Assembly: GCF_024346585.1 (NCBI RefSeq)
Contig: NZ_AP024523.1
Location: forward strand, 1,869,001 to 1,933,000
Direction of reading: 5' to 3'
DNA length: 64,000 nt
Source: Streptococcus toyakuensis
GTDB taxonomy: Bacteria > Bacillota > Bacilli > Lactobacillales > Streptococcaceae
A model generated the notes under the pieces. That model did no database searches. It saw only the letters and a program-made list of their open reading frames with translations, and was not told the origin of the DNA. Both the position numbers and the translations under genes were made by a program. Positions 13,794 to 45,457 of this stretch are shown here, one piece after another; the first letter of the stretch is position 1, and each line of letters opens with the position of its first letter.

Positions 13794-13836
13794 TTTCCGT
13801 CCTCCGTTTGCTTCTATTATATCATGGATGATAAAA

Positions 13837-13863
13837 CAAAAGCCACCCATACAGGCGACTTTT
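13837..13863 (-). terminator. terminator after the UPF0210 gene
   Basis: Read leftward, a 10-base stem with two G-U pairs closes a short loop and is followed by UUGUUUUA. It lies about 175 bases past the UPF0210 stop and directly upstream of the histidine phosphatase gene. Confidence 0.6.
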
Positions 13864-13891
13864 GCAGGAGATTATTATGAAAAAGTTTAGG

Positions 13892-14018
13892 AGTTCTATT
13901 AAATAAAGATATTAGATGAAAATCAAATTCAAACTAAATCAGTGTTATCTGTTTCAAATAATATTAGGAGGTCTTTATTTAATGATTATAGTATACACAT
14001 CCAACCTTAAATAGAACT
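13892..14018. repeat. small nested inverted-repeat element (possible MITE remnant)
   Basis: About 127 bases bounded by AGTTCTATT and its complement AATAGAACT, with an inner pair TTAAATAAAGA / TCTTTATTTAA near each end. It carries no ORF. Nested end-to-end inverted repeats suggest a miniature element, but no clear target duplication flanks it. Confidence 0.3.
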
Positions 14019-15814: not shown

Positions 15815-15902
15815 ATGATGAGTGTTCCCGCTAGGACCGAAATCCTAGCGGTAGACCAGAGCTAGACTAAGAGCACAAGACTCCATCATCATAACACTCA
15901 AC
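15815..15902 (-). ncRNA. L17 downstream element-like structured 3' UTR
   Basis: Between rplQ and its terminator. An 8-base closing helix (15819-15826 with 15893-15900) encloses a perfect 9-bp hairpin (15828-15836 with 15843-15851). The position directly after the L17 gene and the compact multi-helix shape match the published L17 downstream element of lactic acid bacteria, an RNA of unknown role. The assignment is from position and structure, not a covariance-model hit. Confidence 0.65.
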
Positions 15903-42414: not shown

Positions 42415-45075
42415 TTACAGCCATTCTTGATATTTTTTGATATAGATTTTTTTCACAATTGTCACGCTAATCATATACAAAATAATGATGAAAAGTAAAA
42501 AGATGAAATAAATCGGTTTTAAAGGAGTTAGATGAAGTAGGATTGCGAGTGGACTATAGGGAAGGAAGGTCACAAAGGCTGCAGCCAATAAGGTTGTCAC
42601 AAGGACTAGCCAAGCTGGACGACTTTGTAAAAAGGGAATTTTGGCTGAACGCAGCATATGGATAACCATGGTCTGTGACCACATGGACTCGATAAACCAA
42701 CCTGTCTGAAACAAGACAATAAATCCTACGGCAGACTCCGCTCCATGAACATAAGCTTGACCTGTTGTCATGGGTACAATGATAAAATAAAGCAAACTGA
42801 AGGTCAAAATATCAAAGGCAGAAGAGATAGGCCCCATCCAAACCATGAAACGTGTGATGGACTTAGCTTCCCAGGTATGCGGATTTCTCAAAAAATCTTT
42901 ATCCACCTTGTCAAAAGGCAAGGCAATACAAGACAAATCATAGACTAGATTTAGGATAATCAAATGAACTGGTGCCATTGGTAAAAATGGCAAAAAGATT
43001 CCAGAGACCAATAGGGATAAGATATTTCCAAAATTAGAACTCACTGTCATTTTGATATATTTAGTCATATTGGCATAGACCTTACGACCTTCAACAAGTC
43101 CTTTTTCCAGCACCATGAGATCCTTATCAAGTAGGATAACATCAGCTGTTTCTTTGGCAATATCTACTGCTGTATCAACAGAAATCCCCACATCTGCAAC
43201 CTTCATAGAAGGAGCATCATTGATCCCATCTCCCATATAGCCAACAGCATGACCATTAGCCTTAAATTGCAAAATAATCCTCGCTTTTTGGTCAGGAGAA
43301 AGTTTGGCAAAGACTGTTACCTCCTCCACGGCTTGAGCCAATTCTTGATTACTCATCTGATCAATTTCAGATCCTAACAGCATCTGATTGATATCCAAAC
43401 CAACCTTTTCACAGACTGATTGGGTAACTTTCTCGTTGTCTCCCGTCAAAATCTTTGTTTGAACCCCATGTTCTAACAGAGCCTTAATTGCTGGTGCTGC
43501 AGATGGTTTAGGAGGATCTAGGAAGGCTAAATAACCAGTTAGAATCATATCCCCTTCATCATCAACTGTATAGGCATGTCCTTCCCTTAAACCTGACTTA
43601 TAGGCTACTCCCAAGACACGCAAACCTTGTTGATTTAGTTGTCTGACTTCTGCTAAAATTTCTTCTCTAATAACATCTGTCAAGGGAGTAATCACTCCTT
43701 GGTATTCCGCATGACTGGAAATCGTCAACATTTCCTCTAGGGCACCCTTGGTTACCAAACTAACAACTTCGTGTTCATCCTTAACGATAACACTCATCCG
43801 TCTACGTTCAAAATCAAAGGGAAGCTCATCTATTTTTTGAAAAGTTTGAGCCAGATTTTGCAAGAGGGTGTGTTCTTTTGCTTCCTTTTCAGTCCGTTTG
43901 ATGATGGCTCTATCCATCAAATTTTTCAAGCCCGTTTGAAAATAAGAATTGAGATAAGCTCGTCTCAAGACGGTCAAATCCAAGCGTCCGTGGATGTCCA
44001 AGGGATATTCAAGGACAATTTCGTCTTGGGTTAGAGTTCCTGTCTTATCTGTACACAAAATATCAATCGCCCCTAAGTCCTGTATGGCATTGAGTTTCTT
44101 GATAACCACTTTTTCCTTGGCCATAATGATGGAGCCTTTTGCTAGACTGGCCGTGATAATCATAGGAAGCATCTCAGGTGTCAATCCAACACCAACACTC
44201 AAAGCAAATACGCCAGCTTCCAGCCAGTCACCATCTGTTAAACCATTGGACAAGAAAACGATGGGCACCATGACCAGCATCAAACGAATCAAGAGCCACG
44301 AAATACTATTCATCTCCCTTTCAAACGAAGTAGGCTCATCATAGGTGTTCAAAGTCTGCTCAATGGCCCCCATCATGGTATCATCACCAACTGCTAAAAC
44401 CACGGCCTTGGCACTACCAGATAAGACATTGGTTCCCATAAAGGCGAGCGCTTCTGCTTCTAGCAGACTATCAGATTGTTGAACTGTTGCCTTGGTCAAG
44501 GCCAATTTTTCAACAGAATCACTTTCGCCTGTCAAGCCCGACTGTTGGACAAAGAAATCGCGCGACTCAAATAAAAGAAGATCTGCTGGAATCATGTCTC
44601 CAGCGCTTAATTTAACCACGTCACCCACTACCAAATCATCGATAGGTACTTCTTGGATTTCTCCTTGACGAATGACAGTCGCTGTGTTGACAATCATTTT
44701 TGATAGATTGGTCGCAGCCTTATCACTACGGAGTTCTTGGACAAAGCGTATGCCACCAGAAATGAGGACTAGGACAACGATGATAATAGAAGTCGTCGGA
44801 TCCTCTTGACCTGGTTTTGCCAACCAGACATTGGTCACCAAGGAAATCACGGCGATGACCAGTAAGATGATCGTAAAAGGATTGATAATGGATTCGTAAA
44901 TCTTTTTGAGGATACTGTCTTCTTGACCCTTTGTGATGGTATTTTCGCCATATAGGTCACGATTTTTCTCCACCTGCTCCTCAGTCAATCCTGTTAGACT
45001 TGTCTTATAAAAAGATAGAGTTTCGTTTAAAGATGTATGAATAGCTATTGCTAATCTTTCTTTTGTAGTTTTCAT
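42415..45075 (-). CDS. MgtA-type magnesium-transporting P-type ATPase
   Basis: An 886-residue P-type ATPase of the IIIB magnesium importer type. An N-terminal cation ATPase domain (TGLTEEQVEKNRDLYGENTI) leads to the first membrane helices; the actuator TGES is in SGLTGESDSVEK, the phosphorylated Asp in CTDKTGTLTQDE, the nucleotide-binding KGALEEM and the hinge GDGINDAPSMKVADVG. A C-terminal bundle of helices follows. It moves Mg2+ into the cell at low external concentration. The assignment to magnesium is strengthened by the M-box riboswitch upstream. A leader ORF and a hairpin that can hide its ribosome binding site add a translational layer. The separate pneumococcal CaxP/MgtA gene has a different riboswitch, so this may be an additional transporter. 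Confidence 0.9.
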   Translation of the reverse strand: MKTTKERLAIAIHTSLNETLSFYKTSLTGLTEEQVEKNRDLYGENTITKGQEDSILKKIYESIINPFTIILLVIAVISLVTNVWLAKPGQEDPTTSIIIVVLVLISGGIRFVQELRSDKAATNLSKMIVNTATVIRQGEIQEVPIDDLVVGDVVKLSAGDMIPADLLLFESRDFFVQQSGLTGESDSVEKLALTKATVQQSDSLLEAEALAFMGTNVLSGSAKAVVLAVGDDTMMGAIEQTLNTYDEPTSFEREMNSISWLLIRLMLVMVPIVFLSNGLTDGDWLEAGVFALSVGVGLTPEMLPMIITASLAKGSIIMAKEKVVIKKLNAIQDLGAIDILCTDKTGTLTQDEIVLEYPLDIHGRLDLTVLRRAYLNSYFQTGLKNLMDRAIIKRTEKEAKEHTLLQNLAQTFQKIDELPFDFERRRMSVIVKDEHEVVSLVTKGALEEMLTISSHAEYQGVITPLTDVIREEILAEVRQLNQQGLRVLGVAYKSGLREGHAYTVDDEGDMILTGYLAFLDPPKPSAAPAIKALLEHGVQTKILTGDNEKVTQSVCEKVGLDINQMLLGSEIDQMSNQELAQAVEEVTVFAKLSPDQKARIILQFKANGHAVGYMGDGINDAPSMKVADVGISVDTAVDIAKETADVILLDKDLMVLEKGLVEGRKVYANMTKYIKMTVSSNFGNILSLLVSGIFLPFLPMAPVHLIILNLVYDLSCIALPFDKVDKDFLRNPHTWEAKSITRFMVWMGPISSAFDILTFSLLYFIIVPMTTGQAYVHGAESAVGFIVLFQTGWFIESMWSQTMVIHMLRSAKIPFLQSRPAWLVLVTTLLAAAFVTFLPYSPLAILLHLTPLKPIYFIFLLFIIILYMISVTIVKKIYIKKYQEWL

Positions 45076-45124
45076 TGGTTTCTCCTATCTGTATGAATGA
45101 TGTGTTTCATACACAGAGACCAAT
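45074..45124 (-). promoter_or_regulatory. sequestering hairpin over the mgtA ribosome binding site
   Basis: Read leftward, ATTGGTCTC (45124-45116) can pair with GAGAAACCAAT (45084-45074), burying part of AGGAG and abutting the ATG; a second pairing CTGTGTATGA/TCATACAG continues the stem. The ATTGG segment overlaps AGTGATTGG (45128-45120), which has an alternative partner inside the leader ORF, so two mutually exclusive folds exist. Confidence 0.55.
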
Positions 45125-45128
45125 CACT

Positions 45129-45200
45129 TTATAAGGGCAGAACGACACAAATCAGCGATTGGCTGTGTATGTGCGGTTCCGGATGATCGTCAATTTGCAT
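45129..45200 (-). CDS. 23-residue leader peptide of mgtA
   Basis: A short ORF preceded by AAAGGAGAT at ideal spacing, starting MQIDDHPEPHIHSQS and ending in LPL. It lies between the riboswitch terminator and mgtA. Its N-terminus is rich in Asp, Glu and Pro, as in Salmonella MgtL, where such codons destabilise the ribosome at low Mg2+. The codons for SQSL include CCAATCGCT (45162-45154), complementary to AGTGATTGG just after its stop. Inferred role: ribosome passage or loss chooses between the two folds before mgtA. Confidence 0.6.
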   Translation of the reverse strand: MQIDDHPEPHIHSQSLICVVLPL

Positions 45201-45230
45201 CGTTTATCTCCTTTCTTTGATTTAAACAGT

Positions 45231-45259
45231 AGAAAATCCCACCATAAAATGGCAGGATT
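45231..45259 (-). terminator. M-box attenuator terminator
   Basis: Eleven-base arms (45235-45245 and 45249-45259, one mismatch or wobble) with a 3-base loop, followed in the leftward reading by UUUUC. It lies directly downstream of the M-box and before the leader ORF, as expected for Mg2+-induced premature termination. Confidence 0.75.
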
Positions 45260-45284
45260 AAAAAACTAACTATCTGTTTTTCGT

Positions 45285-45428: not shown

Positions 45429-45457
45429 AGTATAAACCTTTAAAATTTAAAAGTCAA
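45429..45457 (-). promoter_or_regulatory. mgtA promoter
   Basis: Read leftward: TTGACT-N17-TATACT, a near-consensus housekeeping promoter just upstream of the M-box. Confidence 0.85.

Follow-up and report, generated by a model that had tools for sequence, protein, structure and literature searches.

An acidic leader peptide and competing RNA folds as a candidate second magnesium gate between the M-box and mgtA in Streptococcus

The leader peptide MgtL and intrinsic ribosome destabilisation were reportedly described by Chadani et al. in 2017 and Gall et al. in 2016. In the literature that we found, as far as its accessible text goes, sensing by intrinsic ribosome destabilisation is described for E. 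coli and Salmonella. Here we describe a leader of comparable build in Streptococcus toyakuensis: the window, a stretch of 64,000 nucleotides (nt) of contig NZ_AP024523.1 (positions 1,869,001 to 1,933,000; coordinates below count from its first letter), carries on its minus strand an M-box Mg2+ riboswitch, a 23-codon open reading frame (ORF) and the Mg2+ pump gene mgtA. We propose, with a probability of roughly 60%, that this acidic leader ORF is a second Mg2+ gate behind the M-box, controlling access to the mgtA start.

The closest known system is Salmonella MgtQ by logic and MgtL by gene, though not demonstrably by descent. MgtQ is a peptide of 8 amino acids with Asp2 and Glu5, and in the available text of its report, replacing its start codon with a stop codon reduces MgtB, and the acidic codons promote a fold that frees the ribosome-binding site (RBS) (PMC8092293). 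The likenesses to the streptococcal leader are a short ORF, acidic codons near its start, an Mg2+ importer as target, control at translation, and four RNA segments in which pairings 1:2 and 3:4 (RBS hidden) exclude pairing 2:3 (RBS free) (PMC8092293). MgtQ, however, is 8 codons long and is encoded between mgtC and mgtB in a PhoP-controlled operon (PMC8092293), whereas the ORF here has 23 codons and occupies a 5' leader behind an M-box in a Gram-positive bacterium. Given its position between M-box and mgtA and its different peptide, we do not regard it as a MgtQ homologue.

MgtL of Salmonella and E. coli has in common with our leader an acidic and proline-containing start (EPDP there, DDHPEP here), the same pump gene and alternative folds (PMC11282234, PMC11552253). 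In the text of these papers available to us MgtL controls Rho-dependent termination, whereas the anatomy here points to mgtA start access as the output, with the M-box as the upstream sensor. The combination of an M-box with a small ORF has been described before, in another arrangement: in Mycobacterium tuberculosis an M-box is followed by a conserved small ORF, pe20, ahead of a Mg2+-related operon (PMC12810186). In the text covered, that M-box acts on the ORF itself by way of a translational platform and Rho, what the ORF does is left unclear, and the conserved feature is an N-terminal region with proline, with no acidic switch (PMC12810186). The original prediction, made from the sequence of this window, had called such a system undescribed in streptococci. 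This holds for the literature searched, but the logic is published for Salmonella MgtQ (PMC8092293) and an M-box with a small ORF for M. tuberculosis (PMC12810186), again judging from partial text. Our searches, confined to open-licence papers in PubMed Central, returned no Gram-positive counterpart. A related logic operates in attenuators of the ErmCL kind, where a ribosome held on early leader codons opens 1:2, so that 2:3 forms and the RBS of the gene is freed. Here there is no drug-dependent arrest peptide; instead, the acidic start together with low Mg2+ would make the ribosome pause.

The leader ORF (MQIDDHPEPHIHSQSLICVVLPL, 45129..45200) lies on the minus strand, like all features below unless stated. 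It follows a Shine-Dalgarno (SD) motif, AAAGGAG (45208..45214, SD match 7), by 7 nt and opens with IDDHPEP, which bears out the earlier claim of a 23-codon ORF with a strong RBS and an acidic and proline-rich start between M-box and mgtA. Among the 43 ORFs of its class in the window (ATG starts, 10-60 codons, SD match of at least 5) it has the highest Asp/Glu/Pro content over codons 2-10 and the second highest Asp/Glu content over codons 2-9. Of the 139 Streptococcus mgtA leaders read, 138 contain an ORF that has an SD-like motif and at least two Asp/Glu in codons 2-9, and the remaining one (L070) is masked; these loci overlap between two genome collections, and 90 distinct sequences is the better number. 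The ORF spans mitis, oralis, infantis, sanguinis, gordonii, cristatus, parasanguinis, australis and vestibularis types, and elsewhere the start is altered yet acidic (MPNDDHPSQQ in intermedius, MPEDGHPEK in massiliensis, and others).

The substitution pattern indicates that the IDDHPEP start is under strong selection at the protein level. Across 25 distinct 23-codon ORFs, codons 2-10, which include the proposed destabilising stretch DDHPEP (codons 4-9, 45174..45191), carry 0.26 synonymous and 0.0099 non-synonymous differences per site, a ratio (dN/dS) of 0.038. Most of the pairing segment described below falls within codons 11-16, where synonymous differences amount to only 0.038 per site, and codons 17-23 of the same ORFs are far freer, with dN/dS of 0.65. 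Together the per-codon rates suggest that the acidic and proline start is kept as protein and the middle as RNA. The locus thus combines a short ORF, a strong RBS and early Asp/Glu/Pro ahead of mgtA, with selection on the acidic residues.

The pairing reported earlier between the ORF and the region after its stop codon is real, but longer than was stated. CCAATCGCT (45162-45154) pairs with AGTGATTGG (45128-45120, directly after the stop) with one G-U, and the helix continues between CATACACAG (45171-45163) and CTGTGTATG (45116-45108), for a total of 18 base pairs (bp) with a 3-nt bulge, the TCT between AGTGATTGG and CTGTGTATG (duplex -23.2 kcal/mol). We call this helix B; by alignment and folding its arm 1 is CATACACAGCCAATCGCT (45154..45171, inside the ORF) and its arm 2 AGTGATTGGTCTCTGTGTATG (45108..45128, 3' of the stop codon). 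The alternative pairing of ATTGG with CCAAT at the mgtA start, also part of the original prediction, is present as well (45078-45074). It belongs to the region of hairpin C (45074..45124, -15.6 kcal/mol), which in the predicted OFF form covers the mgtA RBS and start, including the SD read from the sequence as AGGAG (45082..45086). The two exclusive pairings thus stand as proposed, but the earlier set of folds missed hairpin A, internal to the ORF (segments 1:2; 45139..45180, -15.2 kcal/mol), which would prevent the ON helix. Helix B is incompatible with both hairpin A and hairpin C. Folding of the bare RNA gives -38.6 kcal/mol for A and C together against -31.2 with helix B forced, a difference of 7.4 in favour of A and C, and the window's leader is more stable than its shuffles (z score -2.72; 1 of 200 equally stable).

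Conservation of these helices was counted on an alignment of 74 of the 90 distinct leaders. Outside it are leaders with long inserts (L043, L078, L079, L084, L088, L092, L096), a short one (L181) and those too diverged to align (L127, L128, L130, L175-L179). The 9-bp core of helix B is paired in 98.5% of 666 alignment cells, compared with 13-46% when the partner is slid, and shows two pairs changed on both sides along with several G-U/A-U/G-C exchanges. Its upper half was counted on 74 rows, where an alignment gap in rows of the S. parasanguinis, australis and vestibularis types means that double changes there are not relied on. Hairpin A is paired in 93.2% of 1035 cells with 21 double-change cells, a number reached by 0 of 500 shuffles; slid controls over the counts for A, B and C gave 13-48% paired. 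Related sequences can beat such shuffles without structure, and these pairing counts for A and B are support rather than proof. On sequence grounds we take the parts of the leader and their conservation to be established, and prediction and pairing conservation together describe two mutually exclusive folds, one of which hides the RBS.

Could the ORF and hairpins be mere by-products, and the leader a conserved spacer after the M-box? Translation of the ORF is putative, which leaves some room for this idea, but dN/dS of 0.038 over codons 2-10, the conserved competing helices and the recurrence across families described below speak against it, and we give it next to no credence. A conserved acidic and proline-containing ORF, exclusive pairings and a Mg2+-pump target instead fit the MgtL/MgtQ kind of sensing, as the original prediction had it; in that kind, Mg2+ and bL31 modulate the destabilisation of ribosomes on the acidic codons.

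The mechanism that we propose runs as follows. Low Mg2+ lets transcription through the B. subtilis M-box, according to the text available on that riboswitch, and at this locus low Mg2+ would likewise permit transcription, upon which the leader ORF would be translated. RNA that is free of ribosomes or translated fast would fold into hairpins A and C, with C covering the mgtA start (OFF). Low Mg2+ would destabilise or slow ribosomes on the Asp-Asp(-His-Pro-Glu-Pro) start, and a ribosome at Asp-Asp would keep the 5' arm of hairpin A open, allowing CATACACAGCCAATCGCT to pair with AGTGATTGG(TCT)CTGTGTATG. Once helix B had formed, hairpin C would be impossible and mgtA would be translated (ON). We infer that the ORF is translated, that ribosomes pause on it and that Mg2+ is the signal. 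If the proposal is true, a single leader would hold two Mg2+ read-outs, of the free ion at the RNA and of ribosome stability, and reporter constructs for the M-box that stop at its terminator would leave some of the regulation unseen.

The fold logic itself is a prediction, OFF when ribosome-free and the ON helix with a ribosome at the Asp codons, from a model that leaves aside tertiary structure, kinetics and Mg2+. We barred 15 nt on each side of the ribosomal peptidyl site (P-site) from pairing and moved the ribosome codon by codon. Over the 74 leaders, the mean probability of helix B is 0.00 in bare RNA, 0.34 with the P-site at the first Asp, 0.52 at the second Asp and again 0.00 at codon 14 (12 in the shortest ORF). 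With the last four codons and the stop left out of the search, the helix B peak lies between -1 and +4 codons relative to the first Asp in all 74 distinct leaders, and the peak of SD accessibility does so in 63. In most leaders the helix B peak lies at the Asp codons, ahead of Pro9; the Asp-Asp codons mark the position at which, by prediction, a ribosome held in place flips the RNA. Shuffled sequences reach the real effect 0-2 times of 40 in 8 of 11 representative leaders.

These results bear directly on the switching order first suggested, in which ribosomes drop off at low Mg2+ and leave bare RNA to fold helix B, whereas full translation at high Mg2+ masks arm 1 and sequesters the start. Its sign and its parts agree with ours. 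However, the free RNA in Streptococcus is predicted to be OFF, the ON helix should, by prediction, form chiefly with a ribosome blocking hairpin A around the Asp codons, and a ribosome that has reached the ORF stop would melt the start hairpin instead of closing it. Given the predicted mean helix B probability of 0.00 and the energy advantage of A and C, we reject the idea that bare RNA is the ON form in Streptococcus, and we consider this version as a whole very improbable. In its predicted behaviour the leader agrees with Salmonella MgtQ and not with an RNA left bare by ribosomes dropping off.

Several observations weigh against our proposal. Hairpin C, although paired in 96.7% of 748 cells, has no double changes, and its covariation over the 74 leaders does not exceed that of shuffles; alignment across streptococci, the check first suggested, thus upholds the ORF (138/139), its acidic and proline codons and the double changes in helix B, but not covariation of hairpin C. 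The SD of the free mitis-type RNA is hidden only in part (accessibility 0.31), and the window's own gain is small, from 0.31 to 0.39, or 0.55 with a longer 3' flank. In 11 of the 74 leaders SD accessibility peaks 12-20 codons beyond the first Asp, the gordonii-type L126 is nearly without a gain, and the intermedius-type L127 lacks the pattern. Shuffles match the real effect 7 of 40 times in L001, the window's own leader, 15 of 40 in L126 and 6 of 40 in L120, and with a footprint of 12 nt on each side it is lost in L001, L126 and L128. In this model, then, the effect of ribosome position in the window's own sequence is weak. Outside the genus, no rise with ribosome position was seen in L150, L199, L200 and L209, and among distant M-box-mgtA leaders, L212 lacks an ORF of this kind while L024 and L218 carry a short basic one. 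Placing a ribosome on the stop codon likewise melts hairpin C (SD accessibility 0.69 in L001), and the ORF of the S. parasanguinis type, which reaches arm 2, would together with this opening favour simple coupling.

In such plain translational coupling, the ORF would be read to its end, the terminating ribosome would melt hairpin C, the acidic start would sense nothing and the M-box would be the sole sensor. In L016, SD accessibility reaches 0.97-1.00 when the ribosome stands on the last codon and on the stop. In the S. parasanguinis type (L016, L172, L182) the ORF continues through arm 2 of helix B to a stop about 18 nt before mgtA, from where a terminating ribosome would open the mgtA start. 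Coupling leaves unexplained, however, the selection on IDDHPEP, the recurrent acidic starts in diverged leaders and helix B itself, and we regard it as improbable, though less so than drop-off.

Other Streptococcus leaders vary in ways that leave their parts recognisable to different degrees. A repeat element of about 106 bp, apparently RUP, sits in the loop of hairpin C in L078, L079, L084, L088, L092 and L096, with the stem still readable. L043 and L067 have a similar element at another place; in these two the ORF differs in its later portion, and AGTGATTGG does not occur within the last 175 nt. The record L056, labelled S. pneumoniae 19F, has an S. mitis-type mgtA with this leader, which may reflect misnaming or transfer.

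Beyond Streptococcus, RF00380 is present in 278 of 395 genomes of the order. We surveyed 70 M-box loci, made up of the 30 best matches returned and 40 picked by hand for genus spread among the matches listed, under a rule blind to acidity that took the ORF of 10-60 codons with the best SD between M-box and gene. An SD-preceded ORF emerged in 35 of 38 M-box-mgtA leaders outside Streptococcus, and 27 of these 35 have at least two Asp/Glu in codons 2-9 (L151 through a wrong ORF, the right one, MDDSSQGR, being present); as the loci are related within families, these counts are not independent events. Shuffled leaders gave an ORF in 771 of 1520 cases, 13.6% of which reach that acidity. Four leaders (L195, L196, L205, L207) have one Asp/Glu in codons 2-9. 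The rule chose a wrong ORF in L193, L206, L210 and L223, where an acidic one is present by eye, and gave none in L162, L212 and L218; by eye L162 has MSDHALES.

Among the 32 loci first counted as other genes, 11 have an ORF and four of these are acidic (L160, L202, and the TTG-started L145 and L189). L160 proved to be truly mgtA, L201 and L202 mgtE (L202 passes the TIGR00400 cut-off, and L201 is labelled through similarity to it) and L219 mgtE-like, below the cut-off. This leaves 28 M-box loci not before mgtA or mgtE, of which 2 (L145, L189) are acidic by the blind rule and 26 are not; no gene was called at L163, and the genes at L156 and L157 are not resolved. The small ORFs after the M-box in L201, L202 and L219 begin MQKDKDEYP (by eye), MVINDDSES and MEPVP, with acidic or proline starts. 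Some M-boxes (L135, L147, L152 and similar) precede lipid-phosphatase-like, FtsW/RodA-like and MgtC-like genes, going by sub-cut-off matches or by eye.

The rarity of the ORF behind other genes' M-boxes (2/28) bears on a further alternative, in which the switch has the same build but reads general translation stress rather than Mg2+ itself: proline or EF-P supply, pausing on acidic stretches handled by an EttA-like factor, or ribosome-targeting drugs, with mgtA linked through ribosome health. The folding requires just a slow ribosome at codons 4-8, the two Pro codons are conserved along with the acidic pair, and in E. coli the factor EttA works at the acidic start of MgtL, EPDP, according to the available text (PMC11282234). 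Set against this, the ORF lies behind M-boxes of Mg2+ transporters, and most leaders peak for helix B at the Asp codons, ahead of Pro9. We think this reading unlikely, although it deserves slightly more weight than coupling.

In the diverged leaders, ribosome scanning gave a mixed picture (n=36, L223 excluded; no threshold was fixed beforehand). An early-codon rise is clear in L146, L153, L187, L193, L195, L211 and L215, and besides these seven and the four null leaders the remainder are small or unclear. In several the rise begins at codon 1 already, and is hence not specific to the acidic codons there. A stretch around TATTGTCTATCTGTTTC near the ORF end recurs by eye in L146, L151, L159, L160, L198, L211 and L221 in differing frames (LLSICF, YYCLSVS), which points to an element at the RNA level and not to a peptide. 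The basic ORFs of L024 and L218, MVKRCIIS and MVKRCILL, come with a GAGGAGG site in place of the acidic ORF and are possibly another leader class.

Five mgtA leaders from Bacilli that lie outside the order (L224-L228) have ORFs of 45-51 codons starting MEDGH, MDDSS or MEGSP, and by eye a second intrinsic terminator before mgtA; an M-box was found in L224, L225, L226 and L228, the four searched. In L226 and L227 this mgtA-proximal terminator is predicted to be weakened in bare RNA (in L226 partly) and with a ribosome at codons 3-14, to form with a ribosome at codons 20-31, and to be weakened again at about 33-43. The behaviour of bare RNA in these two of the five leaders favours the drop-off version. 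The expected ribosome dependence was not seen in L224 and was slight in L228, and in L225 the scan took a wrong T-run. At the mgtA loci L229, L230, L232 and L233, no comparable ATG-started acidic ORF was seen by eye, and the three searched for an M-box (all except L233) had none; L229 has a GTG-started ORF with two Glu far upstream. L231 and L235 have further acidic-start small ORFs directly before mgtA, MMDHPAPERNLIN and one containing MREDADDADGW.

We consider the evidence evenly poised on a wider proposal, that Bacilli own a widespread class of ribosome-based Mg2+ sensors. These would be acidic-start leader peptides between M-box and mgtA (in some lineages mgtE), joining a direct RNA sensor and a ribosome sensor in one transcript, with outputs that differ (streptococci would use a hairpin over the start site, Bacillus-like genomes a second intrinsic terminator), and would have arisen independently of enterobacterial MgtL/MgtQ. 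Examples of the acidic starts are IDDHPEP, MDDSS, MEDSS, MDESP, MGDDP, MEDGH and QEDEVEEPD. If our reading of the streptococcal leader is true, it would be a conserved Gram-positive counterpart behind a riboswitch for the same ion, and the trick would have evolved more than once. The finding also hints at which unannotated small ORFs of Bacilli may be sensors.

The host genome is a 2.06-Mb Streptococcus genome, and the close relatives of its mgtA among named records are Streptococcus mitis and its neighbours. Read along the minus strand, a pepP-like gene comes first, followed by the M-box, the leader ORF and mgtA; the pepP-like gene and uvrA upstream were both named by eye from ORFs. A candidate promoter, TTGACT-17-TATACT (45429..45457), a consensus match alone, precedes the M-box aptamer (RF00380, 45269..45421), which scores 85.1 bits against a gathering score of 44 and lies upstream of a Mg2+ gene. 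It is followed by its likely intrinsic terminator, TCCTGCCA/TGGTGGGA then TTTT (45231..45260), identified by eye; the terminator scan did not flag it. Over 45040-45268, a search for other Rfam families (E-value up to 1) gave one match, at E 0.85 and 13.5 bits against a gathering score of 49.5, and on this result we reject the idea that a further Rfam family, beside the M-box, extends over the ORF and hairpins. The gene mgtA (42415..45075) encodes a magnesium-translocating P-type ATPase of 886 amino acids (TIGR01524, 1073.6 bits, cut-off 610.75). The pneumococcal P-type ATPase called "MgtA" in manganese work is, in the text available, a Mn2+/Ca2+ transporter under a Mn-sensing (yybP-ykoY) riboswitch (PMC7674665, PMC9495176), and the M-box and family match argue that it is a different gene from the one here. 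Elsewhere in the window, Rfam families L17DE and csRNA1 match at 15828-15900 and 13836-13983, both on the minus strand.

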